From: Cephalotus follicularis
Lineage: Eukaryota; Streptophyta; Magnoliopsida; Oxalidales; Cephalotaceae
NCBI GenBank assembly: GCA_001972305.1
Contig: BDDD01000542.1
Coordinates: 248,001-312,000, forward strand
Reading direction: 5' to 3'
Length of the DNA stretch: 64,000 bases
Of this stretch, positions 522-17,300 are shown in pieces. The first letter of the stretch is position 1. Each line of letters opens with the position of its first letter. A program made the translations under genes and the position numbers. The notes below the pieces were generated by a model, which saw only the letters and a list, made by a program, of their open reading frames with translations, was not told the origin of the DNA and did not search any database.

Positions 522-2780
522 TGGAGTCCTTTTCAATATGTGAGCCATGTTTGATTGGCATGATGACCAAATCTCCCTTCTTTGGGGATAGAGAAAGGAT
601 AGTGGACATATTGTATTTTGTCCGTACTCACATTTGTGGAACAATGTCAGACAATGCAAATGAAGGTTTTCACTAGTTCATTACCTTCACCAACGACTTG
701 TCATGGTTTGGGTAGGTGTTTCAGGTGAAATACAAATCTAAATCCTTTGAGAGAGGCTCAAGGAATTTAGACTAGAAGTAGAGAAGCAAATAGGGAAGCC
801 CATTAAAATACTTCAGTGGGACCAGAGAGAGTGAATATCTGTCTGCAGAATTCTGACATTATCTGAGAGATAATGGAATTCTCTCTCAATGGACACCTCC
901 TGGAACACCATAGTATGATGATGTATCCAAACGGAGGAATTGGACCTTAGTGAATATTGTCCAATCCATTATGTCTTTTACCTATCTTCCTATCTCCTTC
1001 TGGGTTCAACACTGCAGTTGACAGCGTTCATCCTAAACCGGATTCCTTTGAAATCCTTCATCTCCATATCTTACGAGATATTTAAATGGAGGAAACCCAG
1101 CCTAAACCTTTTGAGGGTTAAGGGCTGTCCGTCTTATAAAAGAAGGCGAGAACCTTCTAAGCTGGAGGCACGATTGGACCATTGCCAGTTTGTGGGATAT
1201 CCTAAGAAGTGTTTAGGATTACATTTCTACCATCCCATCCAACAAATGACCTTTGTTTCGCGTATTGCAAAATTCCTAGCAAGGAATACCTGCTTGCAGG
1301 AAGCAATGAGAGTAAGGTATAACTAAGAGAGTTACCACTGGGTAATAACCCACAGGACGATAAGGAATTAGAGGTTAAATCCTCTAAATACACTGTTGGG
1401 GTGGGATCCCAACCTAAGATGGGATCTCAGTAAGGCACTCATCGTGTGAGGATATCAGGCAAGGTTTTAACAGCGCCTGAGAGATATGGTTTTCTCGGGA
1501 AAAGGCACTGATAAACCTAACAACATCACTGATGTCGAGCCTATCAGCTACTAGAAAACAGTGAAGAGCACTGATTCCAGGACATGGCTGGGAGCCATGA
1601 AATCCCAAATGGACTCCATATACGTCAACCAAGTGTGAAACTTGGTTAATGCTCCTGTGGGCAGGCTGCCCATTGGTTGCATTTATATCTTCAAGAGGAA
1701 GATAGGCATTAATGAAAAATGTTGAAACCTTTAAAGCGCGAATGGTCCCAAAAGGGTATAGACTAAGACAAGAGGTCAACTATACCAAAAATTTCTTGCA
1801 AATCACAATGCTTAAGTCCATTCAGATTGTGCTTGCTAATGCCGCTCATCGTGATTATAAGCTATGGCATATGCATGTCAAGATGGCCTTCATGGAGGAC
1901 CATCTTGAAGAGGACATTTAAATGTCCCGACCCAAGGGGTTTACATCCGATGAGCATCCGCACAGAGTGTGCAAGCTCTATAGGTCTGTATATGACCTTA
2001 AGCAAGCAGCCTGTAGCGCCATTATAATTTTTTTGGCTTCATCAAAACGTTGATATGCCTTATGTCTACCGAAAATAGGATAACCCAGATATTACTTTCT
2101 TGGTACTATACGTGGACAACAAACTACCCATTGAGAATAATGTTGATATGTCACAGTCCATGTCAGTATAACAAACCAAGAACTTCTCCATCAAGGATTT
2201 GGGAGAGGCTTCCTAAGCACTAAAAAATTGTCAAGAGGATTTTTATATACCTGAGAAGAGCTCAGGATATCTTCTTGACATATGGAGAAGATAGTGAAAT
2301 TGAAACAAAAAGGTCATACCAACTCTAGTTTCAATTGTGATTCAGATGATTGCAATTCCGTTTCAGGATATGTGTTTATCATAAAAGGAGGTGTAGTGTG
2401 ATTTGGAGGAGTTTAATGCAGAAGAGTATTGTAGACTCCACCATGGAATATGAGTATGTTGCAACCTATGATACCGAAAAGTAGATATTTGGAAGCGGAA
2501 GATCAGTGTGGAACTTAATGTAGTTCTATCCATTGTTCGTCCAGTTATGGTGTACTGAGACGACGATAGGGGGCCTTTGCACAAGCCATGGAATGCAGGT
2601 CTCATTACTGCTTTAAACTTATAAAGCGATGGTATCATTAGATCAATTCGATCATCAATAGAGGAAACGTCTTTCATGAGAGATTTACGATGGTAACAAA
2701 CATAGCAGACCCACTGACCAGTGCCATGAGCTGTATAGAACTCGAGAGACATAAAAAGTACGACATGCTTAGGCTATAGG
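522..2780 (+). mobile_element. Ty1/copia fossil 'F', pol part
   Basis: Conceptual translation shows copia pol domains in order: a GAG-pre-integrase-like stretch near 535-600 (CEPCLIGMMTKSPF), integrase core to ~900, the post-integrase region at 940-1330 (FILNRIPLKS, FVGYPKKCLG, FYHPIQQ), reverse transcriptase from ~1712 (VETFKARMVPKGY, DYKLWHMHVKMAF) and RNase H to ~2760 (ADSTMEAEYVA-like, ADP near the end). The right end continues beyond the CACTA insertion at 16027. The element is badly broken, with well over fifteen lesions, and clearly old. LTR, gag and protease lie left of 522 and are not in the window. Confidence 0.85.
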
Positions 2781-2793
2781 CACTACAAGAAAA
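2781..2793 (+). repeat. CACTA left terminal inverted repeat
   Basis: CACTACAAGAAAA; pairs with 16014-16026 (one mismatch). Preceded by the AGG target duplication at 2778-2780. Confidence 0.95.
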
Positions 2794-2796
2794 TTG

Positions 2797-3012
2797 ATTT
2801 TTTGAAACGCACCTTTTTTAAACGACCGTGTAATCAATTTCAAAAAGTATAAGCATTTAAAACGGTTACTGTGATCCGTTTCAAAAAGTATAAGCATTTG
2901 AAATGGTTACTGTGATCTGTTTCAAAAAGTATAAGCTTTTGAAATGGTTACTATGATCCGTTTCAAAAAGTTATAACTATTTGAAACGGTCGATAATTAC
3001 CGTTTCAAAAAG
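2797..3012 (+). repeat. CACTA left subterminal repeats
   Basis: Five to six copies of a 30-40 bp unit containing GATCCGTTTCAAAAAGTATAAG with TTTGAAATGGTTACT. Copies occur in both senses (GAAACGG and CCGTTTC), so the region can fold on itself. In En/Spm such arrays bind the element's TNPA-like protein; that role is inferred here. Confidence 0.85.
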
Positions 3013-3071
3013 CGAATTTTATCAGCATTAAACAAAGTAAAAATTAACAAATCAACTTAAAATAAAAAAAT

Positions 3072-3497
3072 GGCTAAACTACAAATTTAGTACTTGAACT
3101 TTCATTAAATTTGCAATTAGGTACTTGAACTTCATTTGTGTTCAATTAGGTAACAGAACTTCAAAATCGCGTTCAATTGGATACCTTCCGTCAACATATC
3201 ATAACGGTCACTAACGAAAAGAAAACGTGGCAAGCGACGTGGCTTTATGAAATATTAAACAAATAGAAATTTTTGACGTGGCATCTGATATGAAAATATG
3301 GACATGTGTCGACTTTTCATTGGTTGAAAAAAATGGGCAAAAAATATAGAACAAACACACGATCACAAAAAGAAAAAAAACGCACCTTCAATTCTGCCAC
3401 GAACCCTAACTTTCACTCCTAAATCCATCACAAACAAAAATCATCTTCTCAATCAATTGAATCCCTAAATCCATCCTATATAAACCTAAATCACTAC
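3072..3497 (+). repeat. MULE left TIR
   Basis: About 426 bp, pairs with 11681-12039. The right copy lacks about 65 bp found here (around 3125-3195). Contains a TATATAAA box at 3477-3484 that would drive the transposase gene. Confidence 0.92.
3477..3484 (+). promoter_or_regulatory. TATA box in MULE left TIR
   Basis: TATATAAA, followed by an A/C-rich leader and a probable 5' UTR intron (donor near 3643, acceptor ending 3836) ahead of the first transposase ATG at 3851. As in MuDR, promoter activity within the TIR is expected. Confidence 0.5.
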
Positions 3498-6369
3498 AGA
3501 TTCAAGAACTTATTCAACCACAGATTCAAAGCACGAAACCCTAACCTTACATCATCTGATTCGACAAATTCAAAATAGAAAACTCAAATCTGTAAACATG
3601 TTATCGAAACTGGGGTTACGAAGTTAGAAGATTCAAAGAGGTAATTCTCTTTCTAGTCACAGATAATGGCGTATATTATTTCTTTGTCTCCGAAATCCTT
3701 GTTAGGTTACTGGTACCTTTTTTTTCTGTTTCTTTTTTGTTCTTTTAAAGTCTTCACAATATCATATGTAGGTTTATTACTTTTTTGACATTATCGTCCC
3801 ATTACGGTACTTACTTGAATTTTTAAATTTTTGTAGTGTACTACCACACAATGTGCAATAGTGGAAGAGTGACACTGGTGTTTTTCCATGGGGGGAATTT
3901 TGTGGGCATGCCAGACATTAGGTATGTCAATTGTTTACAGAGTGAAGTGCGAAATTTTGATGTTGATCATATAGCTTATTTTGAATTGGTTGCAATTGCT
4001 AAGGAGTTAGGATATCATAATTTAGTGAGAATGTTTTAAAGGGTACCTGACATGCCTCTAAAGGAGGGTTTAAGACTAATAGTCGATGACAAAAGCACTA
4101 ACGAGATGCTTAATTTGTTAGCTATAACCCATAAGTTAGAGATTTACTTTGAACATGGAGTTGATATACCTCAAATAGTCCCTGAACCACACAATAAGGG
4201 TAGTAATGAAGACATAAATGATGATGAGAATTTAAGTGGGAAAGGGAATAGGAATTCTAATGAGGCTTATGAGGCTGAGAGCAGTGATGACAATGAGATC
4301 AGCAGTGATGGGGATGAGGTCCCAGTTGATGTGGAGTTTTCAAGTGATTTTTATGGGGATGAAGAAGATGTTAAGAATTTTGCTGAAGATAACATTGAAG
4401 AAGATCTTGGGGCTTATTCAGTGAGCAGTGATTCAGAAGATATAGATTTTGAACCAGTGGGAAAGGGTGGCAGTAGTAACAAGGAGGGGGGTAGTGAAAG
4501 TGAATATTTTGACTCTGATGACTTAGGCAGTTATAGTGAGGATAGTGAGGATGGTGAACTTGTAAGAAGGAAGAGTCAATTTCCATCTTACTGTGTTGAT
4601 GACAAGGTTCCATACTTTGAGGTTGGTATGCTCTTTGATAGTGTGAAACAATTTAGACAAGCCATCACAAAATATTCTGTGGCTAGAAGAGTTGAAATAA
4701 GCATGCCAATTAATGACTTAAAGAGGGTTCAAGCCAAATGTGTAAAAGGTTGTCCCTAGTATATATATGCAAGTATCGAGAGGAATGACCAGTCATTTAA
4801 AGTGAAGACTTATCACAATGAGCACAAGTGCAACCACAAATTCAAAAACAAGAGAGTCACAACAAGATTCATTGCTGCTGAATTCAAAGACAGGATAATA
4901 ACTTCACCAAAATGTAAACTATTGGAAATCAAAGAATGGTGCAAGAAAGAATTTAAAGTGAATACTGGCATTAGTAAGTGCATGAGGGATAAAGGTATAG
5001 TAATTAAAGAGATGGAAGGAAATCACAAGGAGCAGTTTGCCATGTTAAGGGATTATGGAGAGGAATTGTTAAGGACTAACCCTGGGAGTATAGTAAGAAT
5101 AAAAACTGAGAGGATTGGGGGAGATGATGGGCCATTGTTGTTCCAAAGAATGTATGTATGTTTTGATGCTTGTAAAAAGGGTGGTTGGCTGGGTGTAGAC
5201 TTATCACTGGTATGGATGGGTGTTTCTTAAAGGGACTGTGTAAAGGTGAGCTGTTAACAGCAATTGGGAGAGATGGAAACAACCAGATGTTTCCAATATC
5301 ATGGGTTGTAGTAGAGGTGGAGTGCACGGATTCTTGGCGGTGGTTCATTCAATTACTTATGGTGGATATTGGGACAACTAATGGCTATGGGCTGACTATA
5401 ATATCTGACCAGACAAAGGTATTAAATTCTATTTTAAACCAGTAACATATTATGCTTCCTTTGTTCATTCTATTACATATCTGTTTTCTGAGTTATTGAT
5501 TTGTTTTTTTCTTGTTTTCTTTTTTTGTCCTTATTTATAGGGATTACAGCAAGTTCTTGCTGAGCTCATGCCACATTTGGAGCACAGGATGTGTGCAAGA
5601 CATATTTACCATAATTGGTGCAAGAAACATGTTGGTAGAGAACTAAAGAAGCGATTTTGGATTGCTGCAAAGTCTACAAATGTTCCACAATTCGAGGATA
5701 ACATGAAGATTATTAAGGGCATGAACAAGGGGGATCCACATGATGACATGATGAAACTAAATCTGAGGCATTGGTGCAAGGCATACTTCAGCACTCAACC
5801 AAAATGTGATATCAAAGATAACAACTTGGCTGAGACTTTTAATGGATGGATCCTCCAAGCTAGGACAAAGGCCATTGTGTCAATGCTTGAAGACATAAGG
5901 GTTGCAATTATGAGGAGAATTCATGAGAAGAAGATAAATGCTGACAAATGGAGTGGGGACATTGCACCAAGAATCTTGAAAAAATTAAATGACAACAAAA
6001 AGGTGGCTGACAATTGCAGTTTAGATTGGAACGAGGAGTTGGGGTATGAAGTGGTTCATGGGGTTGATAGGCATAGTGTCATTCTACATGAAAGGAGTTG
6101 CTCCTGCAGAGAGTGGGATCGGACTGGACTACCTTGTCCACATGCAATTTGTGTGCTGAATTCAGACGAGAAAGCACCTGAAGACTATGTAGCCCATTGG
6201 TACAAAAAGGAGTTCTACTTGAATGCCTACCAATACCCAATTCAGCCAGTTAAAAGCTCAAAATTTTGGTCAAAGACAGGATTGGACCCAATTCTATCAC
6301 CACCATTCAAGAAAATGCCTGGAAGGCCAAAATTGTGTAGAAGGAAAGATCCACTTAAGCCAAAGAAGC

Positions 6370-9319
6370 TGTAATATCCCGTTTTTCCGTTTAGAATTGT
6401 CGGGCTTTTCGATTTGTTTCGTGTGGGCTGTCGATTTTTTTTTCGGTTTGTGGACTGCCCGTTTTTCGGTTTGTTTTGCTTTTGGCTAGGCTAAGCGGGT
6501 TTTGGCCTTAGCCTAGTGTGTTTAGACATTAAGTCCATGAATAAATGAAACAATTTTTGGCTTTTTATTTATGTGTTAAAACTAATTTCAGCATTTAAAA
6601 ATTTTAAAAACCCTATTTTATGATAAAATTTGCTTTCTCTCCCACACTCTCTCTTTCTCTCCCGCCACCCTCTCTCCCTCTCTCTCTCCTTCAGCCGCTG
6701 TCACTGGCGTCGATACGGATATGGCACCGACGAAGGCACTGGTCGAACCCCCACGAGCTCCCGAGTCCACCGGACCCAACCCCCACACCGGACAACGACC
6801 CCTTCGGCGTACGCGACATCTTCTCTCTCCCGCATCTGTTTGGCGTCGATTCTCCCGCTCTGATGATCGGCACGACAAGCCAAGGTCATATTTGACATCC
6901 TGGCGTCGAGATGAAGCGAACCCGACCAACCTCGACCCTTGGCGATGCCGAAAAAGCAGATCGACGCAAAGTCAACCGCGGTCAAATGTCTTCGTTCCTG
7001 CCAAATGCGGCGGCGTTGTGGCAAACACGCCCCGGATATGTGATCCCCGACCTCCAACGCTTCAGATCCGCCCTTTTCAACGTCTGATCGGCAACGCGTG
7101 ACAGACACACGCCAGCCAGCGGCGGCGCGTGAGCCCACACGCGGCAATCTCCGACGACATGTTTTGGACAGTTTTTGACTCCGTTCTCCGCATAGGTCTG
7201 ATCCGCTCTGATTCCACGGCATGATTATGGCTCTGTTATCTGTTCCGTATGCTTTCGATATTTGCAACAATTGATGAGCGGTCTAGAGAAGTCTCGATAT
7301 ATATTCTTGAGGTCGTTTTTGGTGATCGCATGAGGTATGGATTCTATCGTTCTTTGGCTATCTGATTTTATTGAAACAATCCAATTTCACTTTTATGATT
7401 AATGTACGGATTATTCTTTCGTTCTTGGATACTCCCTTCGATTTTATTTGAATAAAGTCAATTTTACTGTTTAATGATTATGTACGGATAACTCTTTCTT
7501 TGATACCCTTCTATTGTTTTTATTAGAGTAAAAAGTTAAATTTACTTTTAGGAATAAAGCACAGATTCTCTTTCCTTGATATCTCCTTCGGTATTGTTGA
7601 GATAAATTCGGTTTTGTTTAGTAAATGAAGTACGTGTCTTTGTTTCTTGATACACTCTTATCGATTTTATTAGAGTATAAATTCAGTTTTATTTTGCGAA
7701 TAAAATACGGATTCTTCGTTTTGGTTATCATTCGGTTTTATCTGAATTGAATCTGTTTTGTTTTAATGACATGTACGGATATTCTACTCTTTGCTACTCT
7801 CTTCGATTTTAGTGAAATAAAACCAGTTTTGGACATCTGAATTATTTGAAATGAATTCAGTTTTATGAATATGTTTCCTTTGGTTTTATGAACTAAGTAT
7901 ATTTGGTATGCTTCGAAATAAAGTCAGTTTGATATTTTACGAAAACGATTATATTTTCTAGCTTTATAAATTCAGTTGTGATATGTCTCTATATTGTGAA
8001 AATAAAAGAGTTGTCTTTTGATTATGAAAGTATGCGTTATGTGAAACTATATCGTTGAGAACGATTTATGATTATGTTTTGGGAAACCCTTCTATGTGTT
8101 TTAATTGATTTTGATGAAATCAAAGTTTTTGAAATGGTGAATTACTGAGTTTTTGTACCCACCTATGGGGCGTACCATAGACATGTTGTGGGCCTGGCAC
8201 GGGGGCATGACACTTTCCGTAACGGTGTGATTAGTTTACGGCGTCTCTCTGTGATATCCTTGGATCGGATTTGTGATAGAGGCGTATGGATCGATCCTAG
8301 TTATATGATTTGGGATATGTTATGATATGGGAATTGTACGTGTAGTGTCGTACACTGCAATTCTATTTGGCAATGTGGAATTAGCTACTCCCTTGCTATA
8401 TGTGTTTCAATATGTGATATGTTATGTGGCTCAGTATGGAACTTATGTTTTGAAAAGTTTGTCATACGTTTTGAAAGTTATGGATTTGGTTTTTATGAAA
8501 GTTCATATGTGACTTCAAAGAATGTTTAAACTGATATATTGCTTAAGATTTTTGTTTGGAGTTAACTTTGAAATCTTACTGCTTTCAAATTATCGTTTAT
8601 CGTTTAATGTCTTGTTTTGTTCCGTAATCTGTTTGTTTCGTACTGTTCAGAAACTGTTTTCTTTTGTTCCGTAAATTGTTCTATTCTGTTTCGTAAAGTG
8701 TTTCATTTCATAAAATGTTTTGTATCGTATAGTGTTTGTTTCAGATACTGTATTGTGCATGATATTATTCTGTTTCGAATACTGTTTCATTTTGTAAACT
8801 GCTTTGTTTCGGATACAGTTATGTTTCGTACTGTTTTGTTCGTAAACCGTTCTGTTTTGATTCGTAATTATGTTGTTTCGTAATTGATTTGTTTTATAAA
8901 CTATTCGTAAACTGTTTTATGATTCTATATCCGTACTGAGATTTTCTCAGCCACGTTTTGTTTTCCATGCGGCAGGTTTTTAGGGACAGAATGGGCAATT
9001 GTGATGAGAGAGTTACCCTATGTAAGAGGATCATCTAGGAGTTCGATCCAGTTATGTTTTTAGTGGTGTTATGGTCGTGTACAGGCCAGTTATCTAAACA
9101 GTATTGTGATTTTTGGATTATGACATTTTGGTTGATGACAAAGTTTTCAGATTATGTTTCAGATTCAGTTTATATTCCAAGATGATACATGTTTTCAGAT
9201 TTTTAGAACCACCACGTATTGATTAAGATTAAGATCTTTGTTATGTTTTTAGTTCAGTTTTGTGTGACACACCGATCCCGAATCGGGAGTAATCCCGGTT
9301 CCGAATCGGGGGTGTTACA
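6370..9319 (+). mobile_element. Solo LTR of a Ty3/gypsy (probably Tekay/Del-like) element
   Basis: Begins TGTAATATCCCG and ends GGGTGTTACA, with perfect 5-bp duplication GAAGC (6365-6369 and 9320-9324), inserted in the transposase gene between the SWIM and CCHC parts. 2950 bp. A CT-rich block follows an AT-rich stretch near 6600-6690, a GC-rich block spans 6690-7200, and a long T-rich tract with repeated GATTTTATT/ACGGAT-type units fills 7320-8000. A segment around 8160-8260 is shared in opposite orientation with solo LTR I (50280-50340). No gag or pol sequence remains. Confidence 0.9.
7320..8950 (+). repeat. Degenerate T-rich short repeats in the solo LTR
   Basis: Region 7320-7930 holds about eight loose copies of a ~70-bp unit around TACGGAT..TCTTTC..GATACTC..TTCGATTTTATT. 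Region 8600-8910 holds many copies of a ~20-bp unit around TGTTTCGTAAACTGTT. Both are internal LTR expansions; no reading frame of note. Confidence 0.7.
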
Positions 9320-9982
9320 GAAGCAAAGGGCAGGGAAGCTAGCCAGGACTGGGAGGAGGATGACTTGTAGAGTTTGTGGATCGCAAGGACATAACAAAAT
9401 AGGGTGTTCTATAGTAAGTATTTTACATATATTACCATAATTTATTGTCTTTCAACTATTTTATAATTACTGTGTGTTTTAATTATGGATGAACAGGTGA
9501 CTGGACAAACAGACCAAGTGACTCCTATAGACAATGAAGAAATACAAAGAATGAAAGCTAAAGAAAAACAGGATAAAGAGGATAAGAGATTGAAGGATAA
9601 GCAAGAGAGAGAATAGAAAAAAAGACAGGGAGAAAATGGAGAAACAACAGCAGAGGGCTAGGGAGAAGCATGAGAGGGAGGAGATGAGGAGTGCAACAAC
9701 TGGTTGAAAAAGGCAGAGAGGTCCAGGGATATACACTGACATTGATACTGGAGTGCAAATTCTCAATGTAAGTTTCATCTAAACATTCATGATATGAAAT
9801 AATGTACCCAAAGATGACTTGTAATAATTTCTGTCACATGTAGCATGGTACAAAGCATGCAAGATTCATTTCACCCGGGGACAGCAACATGGGGCAGAGG
9901 AAGAGTTGGAGGAACCAGCAAGAGAGGGTTGAAAGCAGTAACCATGACCAAATGCAATCCAATATGACCCAAGGCAGCCACT

Positions 9983-10334
9983 GCTGAAGACTTGATGTAT
10001 ACTTTGTGCAGCTAAAATTATACTTTGTGTAGCCACTATCAGTGATGTTGTGACAGATCTTATTTTGATTCATGTATAGCTGCTTCATACTTTGTGCAGC
10101 TAAAATTATATTTTATCAAGTTCTACTATTTCCTTTTGTTGTTGAAAGATCCTATTTTGTAAGCTGTTACATCACTGATCAATCTAGTCTTAACTTTCAT
10201 TGTGAACATGTGTTTATTCATTATGGCTGAAGACTTGATGTATACTTTGTGCAGCTAAAATTATACTTTGTGCAGCCACTATTAGTGATGTTGTGACAGA
10301 TATTATACATTGTGCAGCCACTATCAGTGATTGT
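9983..10334 (+). repeat. Direct repeats in MULE 3' part
   Basis: A ~75-bp unit (CTTGATGTATACTTTGTGCAGC...GTTGTGACAGAT) at 9990-10061 recurs at 10230-10301, with partial copies near 10089-10118 and 10305-10334. It lies between the two convergent genes. The stretch 10335-10650 is AT-rich with CACAATCACAATCA-type simple sequence and no gene I can support. Confidence 0.7.
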
Positions 10335-10656
10335 GAATGCTGTCAATGTGACTTTCAAAAGCTATTTTGTACAAGATAAATTAGCTTCTTCTAGTAAATG
10401 CATTATAATTAACATAACGTTTCACAATCACATTGACAACATTCACAATCATATTGACATTCTCACAATCTACAACTGTGTCTTAATATTCATAGTCACA
10501 ATCACAATCACATTTCACTAACAAAGGGGAATATTTAATGTCATATATAACTAGAGGGTGGCAATAGTTTCACAACAAGTACCATAACTTCATATTACAC
10601 AAAAGTTACATTGCAATCATAAAATGCAGTTGAAAAGCTGATTACATTTCACCATC

Positions 10657-11641
10657 TCAGTATGGTAGATGACACACACACAAAAAAAAAGCCCAAGACA
10701 CCAGTAGCACAATCATGTATACTTTCTTTTGTCTGGCTTCTGTAGATGCCACCTTCAATTTCCTTTTCAAACTCTTGTTCTCCCTTTGCAATGCAGAAGC
10801 ATCCGTGTGCTGTTCCAAAGGCTCACAAGAATAATTTGTAAGAGCTCCATTATTGAGTTTCCTCTTGAGTGCCATATTTTCTGTTCTCAACTCAGACACT
10901 TGTGCCTTTAGCATTTTATGATTATCCCTTAGTTCCAAGATAACATCCTTTGCTCTCCCTGAAATTTCAGGGTCATGTCACAGGAATAAGTTGCATTTCT
11001 TAGCATGTTCCTACAATATATCAAACACCATATTAGGTAGTGTGTACTGTATTCAATAACCAAATAATGCAACTGTAAGCAACTACAAAGTGAAAACATG
11101 TCATAATTACATAGCACAAGTAAACATATTTGGATATGTGGTTTGATTGCAAGTTTAAGGAATCTCATTGCAATGACTTTGATTCATTTTATCAATAGTC
11201 CAACAACATTTGACAAAAAAAATACATATTGGAAAACCATGCTAACATTGTGTAATTAATTAAATTGCATCAATTCAATAAAATGTATGAGCTAAATCAA
11301 AGTAAATCGGGAAATTGAGACAAATCATGAAGTTGGGAGGGTTTAGTGATTAGGGTCTGATCTTTATACAAAAAAATTACAAGAATTATTGAAATTATAT
11401 AGTAAACAACTGTATTGACTGAGTAATCATGAAATAAAAAAATAGATTTAACATTAAAAATTATCACGATATAAATAAGGGAAAATAAAAAAGTTACCTT
11501 GTAACTCGGACAACTGTGAAATCTACGACCAGGGTTTGCATCACCCCAAGAAGTAATTCTTGGAGTATTAAGACCACAGTTGCAGATGATTCTTGGGTTA
11601 GTGAACTCATAGTTTGAAATCGAAGACTGCGAAGAAGACAT
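10657..11641 (-). pseudogene. GRF zinc-finger, coiled-coil, membrane-tail protein gene carried by the MULE
   Basis: Two exons on the minus strand. Exon 1 (11641-11498, 48 codons, phase 0) starts MSSSQSSISNYE and holds the first half of a GRF zinc finger (CNCGLNTPRITSWGDANPGRRFHSC). Exon 2 (11010-10657) completes it (KKCNLFL, then HDPEISGRAKDVILELRDN), followed by a heptad-like Lys/Glu/Leu segment and a hydrophobic tail (VYMIVLLVSWAFFLCVC) that looks like a C-terminal membrane anchor. Splice sites are GT/AG. One in-frame TGA replaces the usual Trp of the GRF finger (10979-10981); otherwise the frame is open. Small plant GRF proteins with this layout are common, function mostly unknown; GRF fingers can bind single-stranded nucleic acid. 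It sits where mudrB lies in MuDR, read from the right TIR toward the transposase gene. Whether it helps transposition or is captured cargo is unknown. Confidence 0.8.
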
Positions 11642-11680
11642 TTCACTTATCGCACTATTCGGTTTGAATTCAGTCGAGGT

Positions 11681-12039
11681 TGTAGCGATTTAGGTTTCTA
11701 TAGGATGGATTTAGGGATTCAATTGATTGATATGATGATTTTTGTTTGTGATGGATTTAGGAGTGAAAGTTAGGGTTCATGGTAGAATTGAATGTGCAAT
11801 TTTTTTCTTTTGGTGATCGTGTGTTTGTTCTATATTTTCTGCTTATTTTTTTTCAATCAATGAAAAGTCGATACGTGACTATATTTTCAGATCAGATGTC
11901 ACGTCAAAAATTTCTATTTGTTTAATATTTCATAAAGTTACGTCGCTTGCTGCGTTTTCTTTTCGTTAGTGGCCAAATGAAGTTCAAGTAAATAATTGTA
12001 AATTTAATGGCAATTCAAGTAATAAATTTATATTTAGCC
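11681..12039 (-). repeat. MULE right TIR
   Basis: About 359 bp, inverse of the left TIR with scattered substitutions and one ~65-bp gap. The counterpart of the left TATA box is altered (TATAGAAA). The GRF gene starts about 40 bp inside it, so this TIR probably acts as its promoter and leader. Confidence 0.92.
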
Positions 12040-12209
12040 TAAAAAAATTATAACTGAGACAACAGAAAAAAAAAACGACACGCACTCTCACTCTCTCACC
12101 CGTTCTCTCATCTCACTATCTCAGACTCTCACCGTTCACTGGTCTCCGGTCACCGGCAGGCCGGTCTCACCGTCTCACGCATGTACACGGCACACCTCTC
12201 TCTCTCTGT

Positions 12210-12217
12210 TTATAAAT
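12210..12217 (+). promoter_or_regulatory. Possible TATA box of the captured gene
   Basis: TTATAAAT within a CT-rich promoter-like stretch (12080-12300). It precedes a leader with AAACCCTAGA and a plausible donor CAAG|GTAATC near 12310. It looks like a captured host promoter rather than transposon sequence. Confidence 0.45.
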
Positions 12218-12403
12218 CCCCGAATCTCAAACCCTAGATCCCCAAATCATTCTCTGTTTCTCTCTTAATCTCTTGTGACTTCTCATCTCTCTCTTCATCT
12301 CTTGTGCAAGGTAATCTCTTCATCTCTTGTTACTGCTTTTTCTTTTTGTTTCATAGAATCATGTCGTTCGATTTTTTTTTTGTTAACTCACGGCAACGTG
12401 CAG

Positions 12404-12510
12404 ACCAACGGCTAATGCGATATGCACCGACCAGAAGCCGTTACAATCACGGTCACAGTCACAGCAGCCACGGTCACCGCCGATGCCAGCATTGCCTGTG
12501 CCATGAGTTC
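12404..12510 (+). pseudogene. Possible N-terminal exon remnant of the captured CXC gene
   Basis: After a possible acceptor (GTGCAG, ending 12403), one frame reads a Pro/Ser/Gln-rich stretch (QSRSQSQQPRSPPMPALPVP) that resembles the low-complexity region preceding the CXC domain in CPP/TCX proteins. Weak composition-only evidence. The region 12511-12803 is AT-rich intron-like sequence with nothing else I can support. Confidence 0.3.
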
Positions 12511-12803
12511 AATTTTGGTGACATTAGCTTTCACTTTCATTTTTTTATTTTTATTTTGAGGAATTCAAATATATTGAAGAAAGAAAGTGACAAGAGTTCA
12601 AAATTTTGTATTTTGTGTCTCTTTTTAAAAATAAAAAATGAAAATTGTGGAATGAAATGATACGAAACAGGTGGTTTTGATTGTTGTATGGAGATGGTAG
12701 TAAAAGAGCTGCTACGTTTTATTTTTTTGGCTGATATATGTGAATGTATAAGGATGGCTTTTGTGGTTCTTAAACCTCACACGGATGTGGTTTCCTTCAA
12801 CAG

Positions 12804-12887
12804 GTTACAGACCACAATCGAAGTAAAAAACGGCACTCCAAAGAAACAAAAGCAATGCAATTGCAGAAATTCTCGATGCTTGAAGTT
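12804..12887 (+). pseudogene. CXC-domain exon of a CPP/TSO1-like (TCX-type) gene, captured by CACTA
   Basis: The frame reads TIEVKNGTPKKQKQCNCRNSRCLKL, the start of the first CXC domain of CPP proteins of the TCX5/TCX6 kind (family pattern: EVKDGTPKKKKQCNCKxSRCLKLYCECF). These are nuclear DNA-binding proteins, part of DREAM-like complexes, that bind CHR-type elements through paired cysteine-rich CXC domains. Acceptor CAG ends at 12803 and donor GTAAGT starts at 12888. The next exon (13406) supplies the expected YCEC and then switches to anthranilate synthase. Only a fraction of one CXC domain remains, so DNA binding is not expected. Confidence 0.85.
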
Positions 12888-13405
12888 GTAAGTACATAAC
12901 CTCTTTTCTCTAAGATCTTAACATGAAAGATGCTTCATTTATAACTTTCTTTTCATTAAGTTCACGAATGTTGCCTGCCATAAACTAGACAAACTTTTAG
13001 CCCTTTTAGCTCCTTTTATGTTGAGATGATTCCTCCATGTGTGGTAGATGTCAAATTACTCTGCCCTTCATTAGTCACGCTGCTTTTTAAAGAAGTGTCA
13101 CTGTTTGTCTGAGTTTATTTTATAAGGAGTATTATTTGAAAAGGGTGACAATTCGCGTTACTAATCAATGTCCTCTTCGTTTTTTAACTTTTGGTCCTTG
13201 CTGATTGATCTTCTCTTTTAAAATGTACCCAGGAATCAGTTAAGTTGTTTGAGTTAATGTCAAATCTTAAGTCCATTTTCTGCAAATGCGTGGTAGTCTT
13301 AACATTGTCATTGTATTGCATATGAAGTATTGCCTTTTTGTTTTGAATGTTGTCATTTTCTTACATTTTTTTCGCAATCAAGAAGCACCTTTTTGCGATT
13401 GTTAG

Positions 13406-13496
13406 GTACTGTGAATGCCGAACATTTGCTGATCCATTTGAAGTTTATAGAGCATTGAGAGTTGCTAATCCAAGTCCATATATGACTTACCTGCAA
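13406..13496 (+). pseudogene. Fusion exon: CXC (YCEC) joined in frame to anthranilate synthase alpha
   Basis: Acceptor TTAG ends at 13405. The first base completes the Leu codon split by the intron, then YCEC (13407-13418) continues the CXC domain exactly where a CPP protein would. From 13419 the frame reads RTFADPFEVYRALRVANPSPYMTYLQ, the diagnostic sequence of anthranilate synthase alpha (TrpE/ASA), ending at a GT donor at 13497. The join lies inside the exon at about 13418/13419 and keeps the frame. ASA catalyses chorismate to anthranilate in plastids, the first committed step of tryptophan synthesis. This fragment covers only part of the chorismate-binding domain. Confidence 0.85.
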
Positions 13497-13589
13497 GTCT
13501 GTTTCTTTTTAAATCTATCTATAATTGCACTTCTATGTTTGTATATGTTCTGTGAGTAATTCTTATTGATACTCTATATTCTCCATTAG

Positions 13590-14754
13590 GCTAGAGCGTG
13601 TATTCTTGTTGGTTCAAGTCCATAAATTCTCACTCGGGTAAAGAAGGTAAAATATCAGATTTATTAACTTATTACTACCTTGATTTAAGAATATCATATA
13701 TTGATATTATGGACATATAATATTTACTGTGAATGATGCGCTAATATGCTGTTAATCTGTAAAGATTTACTGATCAAGGTGCTTTATTCTTAATCATATA
13801 AACAGAATAAAATCGAAAATCGGCCTCTGGCTGGAACAGTTCGGAGAGGCAAAACCACTGAAGAAGATCAAAAACTGGAAGCACAGTTGCTAAATGATCC
13901 AAAGGAATGTGCAGAACTTGTTATGCTGGTTGATTTGGGTCAGAATGATGTTGGAAAGGTTATTTTAATATGATTACTCTGTGTTGGTTATCAATGCAGT
14001 ATAAGAAAGCTTTATATTCATCCAACTCATTTTTGTATCATCGTTGACTGGATTACTTAAAACTTACGTTGCGATACCTTTGGTACCTGGATTGTCTTAT
14101 TACCAGCTTATTTCTTTTCAAACCATAAAGTGAACACACTCATTGCATGTCTTCCTCAAAACTTGTTAGTGGTTTAGGGATTTTTTCCTGTCCCATGTGT
14201 TATGATTTTTTCTGTAGTTTTATGGTGTTTTCAAAATACTTTATTCGGATTCATAGGAGCTTTTCACATTATTCAAAATCTTGTCTTGTGTAAACAAAAA
14301 AGAAACATGATTTTTCTTTCTAGAATATAACTCTCACAACTTTAGTTAAAGGCTATACCTTGTTGATATTAGGTTTCAAAATCTGGTTAAGTGAAGGTGG
14401 AAAGCTTATGAATGTTGAACGGTATTCTCATGTAATGCACATAAGCTCAACGGTGAGAATCGATGCTTGTACAATTGCATTATTTAACATTGCTACACAA
14501 CATGTGCGTTGCTATTCTCATGTAATGCACATAAGCTCAACGGTGAGAATCGATGCTTGTATAATTGCATTATTTAACATTGCTACACAACATGTGCGTT
14601 GCTCATGTAATTTTTGGTGTTGTGCTTTCCAAATGACATTTGAGTATAAAATCGACTTGCTTTATGCAGGTTACTGGAGAATTGCTTGATAATCTCACCT
14701 GCTGGGATGCCCTGCGCTGCATTGCCTGTTGGAACTGTTAGTGGAGCACAAAAG
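13590..14754 (+). pseudogene. Anthranilate synthase alpha exons captured by CACTA
   Basis: Four exons with GT/AG borders follow the fusion exon: 13590-13646 (ARACILVGSSP, ILTRVKK), 13806-13958 ([29 protein letters not shown]...[11 protein letters not shown]), 14373-14452 (VSKSG, MNVERYSHVMHISST) and 14670-14754 (VTGELLDNLTCWDALR, then out of frame). The order and motifs are those of plant ASA. Lesions: TAA replacing Glu in SSPEIL, TAA replacing Ser in SGSVKV, a one-base deletion before MNVER and a two-base deletion in ALRAALPVG; the conserved LVDLGRND has Gln for Arg. No downstream exon (VKAMELIDELE) is found, so capture stopped there. Introns are retained, so this came from genomic DNA, not mRNA. 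Confidence 0.9.
14423..14602 (+). repeat. 90-bp tandem duplication across an exon-intron border
   Basis: Unit 14423-14512 is repeated at 14513-14602 with about one mismatch. It duplicates the RYSHVMHISST exon end and its GT donor. Near-identity shows it is much younger than the capture. Confidence 0.95.
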
Positions 14755-15536
14755 GTTCAGTAATTTTGCTTTGGATCCCTTCTTGTCATTTACTTTTTAG
14801 CTGCTTGTTTTGGGATATGAATCAATGACAAAATCGCTCCAAAGTTGATGTGGAACTAGTCAAAATTAGTCTAAGTGAACATAAATTGGGTATTAGGTGT
14901 TCTGTCACAGCTTTGGCACTTGATGGAACATTTGGTCAAGTTTGACTCTCTGTCTCTCTCTTAATTTTATTGTCACTTTTTCCTGGTTAGTTACATACTT
15001 TTCACTTTCTTTTTATGTGTGCACGCCTGTGCAATATATGGTGTTACATTACGGCGATTTATTCTTGCCAAAATGTGCTGTAATTTGCCTCTGGTTCCAT
15101 GGCGTATGCTATATATATGGCATATACGATATTTATTCTTGCCAAATCGTGACTCTGAGTATTTTGCCTCTGGTTCCATGGCTCTCCTGTTGGCTTTAAT
15201 TTCCAGATTTTCTAGACTTGGCAAATTTTCTTGCAGTGCTTTCAAATCATTGGTTCATTGACAGCAGCACCTCCTCTGAGTATCACCAATTAATATGTTT
15301 AGAAGATTATCATTGCATTGAGTTAGCATTGCGTGAAGTACAAGAAAGCTGACCACGTTATTTCAACTTATGTATTTATCATCTAAAATCCTGTTCGTGG
15401 ATATTTTTAGTTTTTCTTTTAGAAAGTTGTTATTATATTGACTACATAATATACAGACAAATTAATTGTATCGCATTTTGATTTTTGATACTTTTATGTT
15501 CATTGTGTTTATTTACATTTAATCAATATAGTTTGG

Positions 15537-15540
<4 letters not shown>
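14755..15540. other. CACTA interior without recognised gene
   Basis: AT-rich, probably the remaining ASA intron sequence. A ~77-bp imperfect duplication containing TTTGCCTCTGGTTCCATGGC lies at about 15053-15185. No coding signal. Confidence 0.5.

Positions 15541-15541
<1 letters not shown>

Positions 15542-15569
<28 letters not shown>
15542..15569. repeat. (AT)n microsatellite
   Basis: Fourteen TA units without interruption inside the CACTA right arm. Confidence 0.95.
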
Positions 15570-15572
<3 letters not shown>

Positions 15573-15587
15573 ATTTAATTTGAGATT

Positions 15588-15660
15588 TAGCACTTGTAGT
15601 CCAGTCGATACAATGTTTGCTTCCTAATCATAATGTCGTGGGTTCGACCTCTATTTTGCA
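15588..15660 (+). other. tRNA-like sequence (SINE head or tRNA relic)
   Basis: Holds GGTTCGACC (15641-15649), a near-consensus RNA polymerase III B box, about 40 bases after TAGTCCAGTCGATA, a weak A-box/D-arm match. No closed acceptor stem, so not a working tRNA. It could be the head of a worn SINE. Confidence 0.35.
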
Positions 15661-15726
15661 CAACAAAAAATCAGATTATAAAAGATTTAAATGAATTTTA
15701 TATTATCTTTATTATTTTAAAAAAAA

Positions 15727-16012
15727 TACATTTTGAAACGGAAGCACAACTGTTTCAAAAAGCAATGTCTATTTTTTTAGCCTTTTGAAATGGATGGGTA
15801 CCCGTTTCAAAAAATTCAGTGTATCAATACTTTTTTGAAACGGTTTCGCCGTTTCAAAAGATAAGCTTTTTAAACGGTTTGTCCGTTTCAAAAAGTTTTT
15901 GTCACTCCAATTTTTTGAAATTCCATTTTTCTTTTTCAAAGCTGTTTCAAAATGCCTTTTGAAAATGAAAAACAACTCTTTTGAAACAATTACAATTCAT
16001 TTCAAAATGGTT
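15727..16012 (-). repeat. CACTA right subterminal repeats
   Basis: Same GAAACGG/CCGTTTC motif as the left array, about eight copies, in alternating orientation, ending just inside the right terminal repeat. Confidence 0.85.
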
Positions 16013-16013
16013 G

Positions 16014-16026
16014 TTTTCTTGCAGTG
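16014..16026 (-). repeat. CACTA right terminal inverted repeat
   Basis: TTTTCTTGCAGTG, the inverse of the left end with A changed to G at position 5. Followed by the AGG target duplication at 16027-16029. Confidence 0.95.
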
Positions 16027-17300
16027 AGGTCTTCCTGGGTTAAGGACCAAGTGGGAGATTGTTAGATTAGGGTGTTCCTGCATATCACGAGAGGTGACAG
16101 TATATATATATGTGAGACATTCCTTGATTTGAGGTGGTGTCCATGCAAGCCGAGAGACGGCTGCATGTATATATATTACACTCTTAAATTTACATTCTTA
16201 GTTTCAGTTATGTTTTAATGTGCATATTATCGTCTTGATTAATAAATCAATTGAATACAGATATAGCGCCTTGTCATTCGAAGGGTTGGATATCGTGCCT
16301 GGGAGGTTATGAGAATCAAATTCTTATTTCCTTCTAACAAAACGTTCCTAAGTGATAGGTTCACTTTCTTTGGGCAATTGTTAAACTATAAAGACTTGAC
16401 GTGTTATGCTTGCTCCCGGATCATGTGGATGATGGATTCTCTCATTGCCATTTGGGTTTACCTTAAAGTTGATGCGGGGTGCATGTTGGGAAGCATGTCA
16501 CTGAACCGACCCACCATAGGAAACCAATTTGGATAGTCAATACCTTTGTCGATCGGATTCATATAGTCTCGGTAGTGTATAGTCGATGGAGACTAGTAGG
16601 CCATACGTGACATGCGTTATGTCCTTAGACCTGAGCGGCTGACATGCATTATTTAGTAACCGCTTGGCTTTGATTTCTGCCTTCCCCAATTCAAGCCACG
16701 AGCTGGAAAAAGGGTTGTCTTTGGGTTTTGTGGGAGCTGCATTGAGATGTATGGGCGAGTGCGCAATAAGGGATTGTCACACCCATATTAAGGGTGACAG
16801 GCTCTATAATATCTGTGACCGTTGCATACTTAAATCCTGGCCAAGTGTAGGCAGACTGGAAACAGAGTTTCTGGGGAGGTTTGTCGATAGTTTCAGTGCG
16901 TTCATAGATTTATAGTTATCGCGATTTTTCCTAGGGGTTACATTTATCCAAACCCTACTCCGTGGTCGGAGCCAAGTATGACGAATTATACATGACACAT
17001 AAACCGATGACACGATAAAGCACTGGTTAACCGACTAACGATTGATAGACGTGGAACTTCGCTCCACAAATCCGGGGGATGATTGGATATCATACCAGGG
17101 CTATTTTGATAGTCTGGGACTATTAGGATAGTCGTACCAGAACTTTGGGATGTTCTGAGAAATTTATCATTGTACCGGGTACCAACCGAACTTTCGGGTC
17201 CCACCTGATTTTGGTACAGGTTGATGTGTATGGGACACATGTCATTTAGTGAGAGATTAACATATGAGAGATGTTACTTTGCTAGTGAGCATTTTAGTTG
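16027..17300 (+). mobile_element. Copia F right end: polypurine tract and 3' LTR start
   Basis: Directly after the CACTA target duplication the copia sequence resumes, with polypurine tract CCAAGTGGGAGAT (16047-16059) and LTR start TGTTAGATTAGGG at 16060, a common plant copia layout. The LTR's right end was not found; 17300 is a rough limit. The interior is non-coding. Confidence 0.65.

Follow-up and report, generated by a model that had tools for sequence, protein, structure and literature searches.

A CACTA transposon in Cephalotus follicularis carries pieces of a TCX gene and an anthranilate synthase alpha gene joined within one exon

CACTA transposons and related elements are described as carrying host genes in several plants. 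The soybean element Tgm-Express1 is reported to hold pieces of five host genes, which are spliced into chimeric RNAs (PMC1947982). In the published model for Pack-CACTA elements, DNA lying between two neighbouring elements is captured (PMC13317346, PMC8903248). Maize Pack-TYPE elements are described as often holding several loci, the Pack-CACTAs holding the most (PMC8903248). According to the account of the Tpn1 family of Ipomoea nil, the termini are conserved, the inside is replaced by host genic DNA, and some of the captures are transcribed (PMC5105172). Here we describe a CACTA element of Cephalotus follicularis that carries parts of a TCX/CPP gene and of an anthranilate synthase alpha (ASA-alpha) gene. 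It lies in a stretch of 64,000 nucleotides, called the window below (C542:248001-312000 of the 1.58-Gb assembly). The features of the element are listed in the table, and positions without a contig name are those of the window.

Features of the CACTA element and of the sequences captured by it or inserted into it
Feature	Position	Strand	Remarks
Left 3-bp target site duplication (TSD) AGG	2778..2780	.	identical to 16027-16029
CACTA element, whole	2781-16026	+	TSD AGG on both sides
CACTA 5' terminus CACTACAAGAAAA and subterminal repeats of TTTCAAAAAG type	2781..3071	+	
MULE in CACTA, with terminal inverted repeats, 9-bp TSD TAAAAAAAT and transposase-like frame	3072..12039	+	
Insertion in MULE, ends TGTAAT...TGTTACA, TSD GAAGC	6370..9319	+	
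CACTA family 5' module: TC-rich leader, presumed noncoding first exon, start of intron	12049..12390	+	exon by eye
Captured TCX/CPP piece, from interior of parent exon 1 to interior of exon 3	12391..13418	+	96% to C6071:62346-63387
TCX exon 2, first part of CXC domain 1	12804..12887	+	Pfam TCR
Fused exon, TCX ...YCEC to ASA RTFADPFEVYRAL...	13406..13496	+	join within 13412-13418
Captured ASA-alpha piece, introns kept, 3' limit inside an intron	13419..15312	+	BLAST to 15267, alignment beyond
ASA exon, premature TAA at 13623	13590..13646	+	
ASA exon, open	13806..13958	+	
ASA exon, premature stop and 1-bp deletion	14373..14452	+	
ASA exon, 2-bp deletion	14670..14753	+	
Second TCX piece, further downstream in the same TCX gene	15309..15383	+	95% to C6071rc 5152-5229
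CACTA 3' subterminal region and terminus TTTTCTTGCAGTG	15384..16026	+	
Right 3-bp TSD AGG	16027..16029	.	

The structure of the element indicates that it is very probably a gene-capturing Pack-type CACTA, with TCX, ASA-alpha and second TCX pieces between family-typical ends and the fusion present in two broken copies. Terminal inverted repeats are present (CACTACAAGAAAA at 2781 and CACTGCAAGAAAA on the minus strand at 16014-16026), and a 3-bp AGG duplication flanks the element on either side. On the 5' side there are 41-bp subterminal units of the TTTCAAAAAG type at 2838-3012. Motifs of the GAAACGG type were found near the 3' end by reading, and they are common to its relatives. The ends and the 5' module are shared with dozens of matches in the genome. 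Host coding DNA with a parent elsewhere, by which Pack-CACTAs are recognized, is represented by TCX sequence from C6071 and ASA sequence from C6. The order within the element is family 5' module, TCX/CPP, ASA-alpha, second TCX and family 3' end. The copy is read as non-autonomous because its interior is taken up by the 5' module, the captured pieces, a MULE and the 3' end. By eye, the host surroundings read as a Copia-type retrotransposon.

Both parents of the fusion were found in the genome. A genome search with 12380-13520 gave six matches including the window. Among them, C113 matches over the full length (96%), C6071 over 12388-13418 (96%), and C6 from 13412 (93%); there are also two 72-bp TCX-exon matches, on C1791 (88%) and C11 (83%). 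The TCX gene on C6071 has an ATG and two CXC stretches, and the four exons read are all open. C6 is an ASA-alpha gene with exons open from AYKEAVLQ to the stop (the last border was joined by hand), and its exons further upstream are seen only as open stretches. The best NCBIfam match of its partial peptide is TIGR00564 trpE_most, at 445.5 bits and under the cut-off of 517.7. In BLAST alignments, TCX sequence at 12388-13418 corresponds to C6071rc 1831-2872 (96%, introns included), ASA sequence at 13412-15267 to C6rc 11567-13349 (two overlapping matches, 93.9% and 94.5%), and second TCX sequence at 15308-15383 to C6071rc 5152-5229 (95%). The fusion of TCX and ASA is confirmed, since both parents match with their introns and both matches end at the join. 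The ASA piece was extended by alignment past the BLAST limit to TATC at 15309-15312. About 25 bp within this extension are found in both the window and C113 copies and are missing from C6. When three ASA segments were searched against the 1.58-Gb assembly, no place was found beyond the window, C113 and C6, save 78-bp matches to an ASA exon on C9101 and C8215 (82%). Further ASA-like loci in the genome are C8215, C9101, C332, C1153 and C4937.

The fused exon is joined in frame and has recognizable domains on both sides. A preliminary description of this DNA had proposed that a CACTA element joined a CPP-type CXC gene to ASA-alpha in frame within one exon, with introns retained, and the parental loci, for which it had proposed a search, bear this out. 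The passage from CXC to ASA within exon 13406-13496 stands, and it is refined in that the join lies at 13412-13418 and an extra TCX piece is present at 15309-15383. This exon and exon 12804-12887 have AG/GT borders, and their joint reading is ...KQKQCNCRNSRCLKLYCEC/RTFADPFEVYRALRVANPSPYMTYLQ. The fused peptide crosses in frame from CNCRNSRCLKLYCEC to RTFADPFEVYRALRVANPSPYMTYLQ. In Pfam it matches TCR/CXC over the cut-off (E 6.5e-6) and Chorismate_bind under it (E 1.8e-4, 21.6 bits against 27), while the peptide of exon 13806-13958 and the first part of the following exon matches Chorismate_bind with an E-value of 4.9e-14. Eight PDB sequences match the fused peptide up to E 1, including anthranilate/aminodeoxychorismate synthase chains (best E 1.1e-4) and LIN54 (E 0.013).

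A second copy of the fusion shows that it was mobilised after capture. The 27-mer at the junction, with up to three mismatches, occurs at two places in the 1.58-Gb genome, the window and a CACTA copy on C113, and a reversed-pattern control gives none. Another CACTA copy with the same join, which the preliminary description had suggested looking for, is thus present. On C113 the copy includes the second TCX piece and reaches the CACTA 3' terminus TTTTCTTGTAGTG, and the flank that follows is unlike that of the window. It is interrupted by other insertions, and its 5' terminus was not found within the 20 kb examined. Since this copy ends as a CACTA and lies next to different sequence, the fusion has moved as a unit. 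For the TCX piece, K2P distances are.030 between the window and C113,.030 between the window and the parent, and.023 between C113 and the parent. For the ASA piece (up to 15140) the corresponding values are.047,.039 and.041. The split between the two copies is estimated at about 1-2 million years ago, on the assumption of 1.3e-8 substitutions per site and year. After sites gapped in any row were dropped, changes private to the window copy number 16 of 663 coding and 38 of 1981 intron sites, and those private to C113 number 9 of 663 and 40 of 1981, the coding value being the lower one in C113 (1.4% vs 2.0%). With such small counts there is no clear constraint on the coding sites of the fusion.

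Both copies contain further insertions or duplications. The MULE at 3072-12039 separates the CACTA 5' end of the window copy from the captured gene pieces. Its frame matches the Pfam SWIM family over the cut-off and a MULE transposase family just under it (E 1.5e-5, 25.8 bits against 27.6). The insertion within the MULE looks by eye like a solo LTR. ASA exon 14373-14452 ends, together with its donor, inside a 90-bp tandem duplication at 14423-14602 (99% identical), which neither the C113 copy nor the C6 parent has. In the C113 copy about 780 bp are inserted in the leader (C113rc 8701-9476), with ends GGATGGCAA...TTGCCAGCC; by eye this is perhaps a non-autonomous element of the hAT type.

The 5' module is shared by a family of loci that carry different gene pieces. 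Sequence 12070-12400 has 36 matches in the genome, of which two are the host-gene loci C447 and C2094. The region that the preliminary description had called promoter-like is therefore the 5' module common to the whole CACTA family. Twenty loci with this module were compared. The window and C113 continue from it into TCX, and of the other 18 loci 17 align up to 12390 and one up to 12386, with varying content beyond. TCX sequence is present in 13 of the 20, counting the window and C113. In the remaining 11 it begins at C6071rc 2883, and there are 10 bp between this position and the last TCX base of the window, 2872. TCX likewise starts at 2883 in C5231, which has shaggy-like sequence, TCX from 2883-4901 and 4892-5229, and then the junction TTTATCATC/TAAAAT with the CACTA 3' end. 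This junction is identical to the letter in the window, C113 and C5231. It follows that the junction arose once, and that the capture of TCX is older than the split between the shaggy and ASA types.

Other mosaics are found in the same family, so the TCX-ASA pairing, which was new to the preliminary description, is one of several. In a branch of the family that is widespread (L030, L055 and C5231), TCX exon 3 adjoins a GSK3/shaggy-like piece. In L030 the exon precedes TCX, and the join reads in frame. A 19-residue match to GSK3 chains (E 0.006) weakly suggests that this exon is GSK3/shaggy-like; its Pfam Pkinase match is under the cut-off (E 0.042), and no parental shaggy-kinase gene was found. 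L033 has DNA polymerase alpha sequence after the 5' module (PDB E 4e-10; Pfam zf-DNA_Pol E 5e-6). The pieces in L038, L042, L043 and C3446 are presumably GCN1/ILITYHIA-like; two of them matched no Pfam family, and one had no match among solved structures. L053 to L056 and C3446, taken up as candidates for the shaggy-kinase parent, turned out to belong to the 5'-module/SK-TCX loci as well. Similarity to the CACTA 3' end is present in L053 and L056 and was not seen for L054 and L055 in the comparison, and C3446 matches the sequence upstream of the module in L030. It is possible, but on balance doubtful, that the family is a layered capture platform. Such a platform would have a fixed 5' cassette (leader and presumed noncoding first exon) and interchangeable pieces. 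Repair synthesis within the element, rather than mobilisation of its neighbours, would insert new pieces into older captures, and shaggy-kinase and ASA sequence would each have replaced part of TCX in separate events, at break points 10 bp apart.

The 5' module also resembles sequence upstream of host genes. Positions 12104-12337 are 71-77% alike to the regions upstream of an oxoprolinase-type ORF (C447) and a PELOTA-like ORF (C2094), donor included. In the window the presumed noncoding first exon ends at 12310 and the donor is GTAATC. In the host loci the likeness lies at 554-776 of L061 (reverse complement) and 347-474 of L060, and its scores were reached by none of 400 dinucleotide shuffles, both loci having been picked by the genome search. 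The C2094 ORF matches Pfam eRF1_1 over the cut-off on one exon, and we take it to be PELOTA. No CACTA terminus motif was seen in the C447 and C2094 stretches examined. The sole match of the CACTA ends there is 26 bp in C447 (E 7e-4), and it is taken as chance. The likeness suggests that the promoter and leader in the transposon may be old host sequence, although the transfer could have gone from host to element or from element to host.

The fused exon could in principle reflect chance resemblance, an assembly error or a new gene, and each of these is improbable. If YCEC were only decayed ASA sequence, for which the parent has RFERR, the CXC part would be accidental, and TGTGAATGC does differ from TTTGAACGC of the ASA parent at only 2 of 9 bases. 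However, the TCX match continues through exon 2 and the intron into GAATGC and stops at 13418, and on this intron match to C6071 the chance origin is rejected. Neither of the findings that the preliminary description had named as refuting its reading was seen: 12804-12887 and YCEC match the TCX gene, and the join occurs only at two CACTA places. A fusion of host genes outside a transposon is rejected on the same distribution. That only two copies of the join exist might point to an error that joined two loci in assembly, but C113 carries the join as well, and its copy differs from that of the window in private substitutions and in the flanking sequence; this explanation is rejected with near certainty. 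A working new gene carried by the element is slightly less remote and still most improbable. The join is in frame, the splice borders are conserved, and a leader with a presumed noncoding exon lies upstream. Against this, the window copy has premature stops and deletions in its later ASA exons (13623, 14373-14452 and 14670-14753), in agreement with the earlier view that no full product is made, and an insertion breaks the second ASA exon of C113. The donor of TCX exon 1 is kept in C113 and lost in the window (GT to AT). A transcript of the window copy was modelled from 12240, a start placed by eye, with a donor after 12310 and splicing to exon 12804; the exon end used, 13497, is one base too long and lies after the join. 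This transcript has no ATG in its first exon and no in-frame ATG ahead of the join in the CXC frame. The first exons, earlier described as looking transcribable, retain conserved borders but lack a start for the CXC part on this model, which makes a fusion protein unlikely even before the stops are considered. With both copies broken downstream and no clear constraint, a working fusion protein from the window element is unlikely. At most, the family 5' module might give rise to a chimeric non-coding RNA, or there might be small RNAs matching the parents. As a new gene the fusion is without importance, being fairly young, under no clear constraint and broken.

The position of the ASA piece suggests that it was written into an earlier capture. 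On both sides of it are pieces of the same TCX gene, in native order, and it takes the place of about 2.3 kb of TCX, which suggests template switching during gap repair. The ancestral element would first have taken in a stretch of the TCX gene, and the middle of this stretch would later have been replaced by ASA sequence. In such an event DNA synthesis across a break or gap inside the element would have left the TCX template for the ASA gene and then returned to TCX, probably at the short matches GC (within TGAA[T/C]GC) and TATC. The fused product would then have transposed at least once and drifted since. At the first join the homology is 4 bp (TTCA; 3 bp with the copies' own letter), and at the second it is 2 bp (GC), part of a stretch that matches at 6 of 7 positions. 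The third join has 4 bp (TATC) and the fourth 0 bp. Homologies of 0-4 bp fit template switching and end joining alike and do not separate the two. We infer gap repair with template switching from this arrangement and prefer it as the somewhat more probable course. The main rival, which has a modest chance, is that the mosaic arose without template switching, through recombination or joint mobilisation of two Pack-CACTAs, of which one held TCX and the other ASA, as in the model of tandem insertion and remobilisation by Catoni et al. It invokes a mechanism published for Pack-CACTAs (PMC13317346, PMC8903248), and family loci with different gene pieces do coexist. However, the ASA piece has sequence of a single TCX gene to its left and right and is remote from the terminal repeats, and apart from the short C9101 and C8215 matches the search with three ASA segments gave no place beyond the window, C113 and C6. 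No intermediate of tandem insertion and remobilisation was seen among the loci compared. The tandem-insertion model can explain the first capture of TCX, but it does not easily explain the nested ASA piece. The ancestor could also have been an SK-TCX element such as C5231 rather than one with the whole TCX stretch, and the order of events would then change. Since both parents, a second copy and a relative sharing one junction are in the same assembly, the order of captures is legible at base level, and the system gives a test of the tandem-insertion model against internal gap repair.

The element resembles described CACTA systems in its general form and differs from them in how the captured pieces are arranged. 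Neither the TCX/ASA pairing nor capture of a shaggy kinase by a CACTA element was found in a search of one collection of open-access papers, and the pairing was not found in the part of the Tpn1 account available to us (PMC5105172). Set beside Tpn1 by description, the window element has the same conserved termini and host-derived interior (PMC5105172). Like the Pack-CACTAs of Arabidopsis and maize, it has non-autonomous CACTA ends around captured coding DNA; as described, those elements capture one interval between two elements, whereas in the window element the interior of an earlier capture appears to have given way to a second gene (PMC8903248, PMC13317346). Tgm-Express1 is likewise a CACTA with intron-containing pieces of several unrelated host genes. 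Its pieces are reported to be spliced into chimeric F3H transcripts, while the window element is a TCX-ASA-TCX sandwich with a join inside one exon (PMC1947982). Multi-gene capture by CACTA elements is already known, and to this the window adds the pairing of TCX with ASA-alpha.
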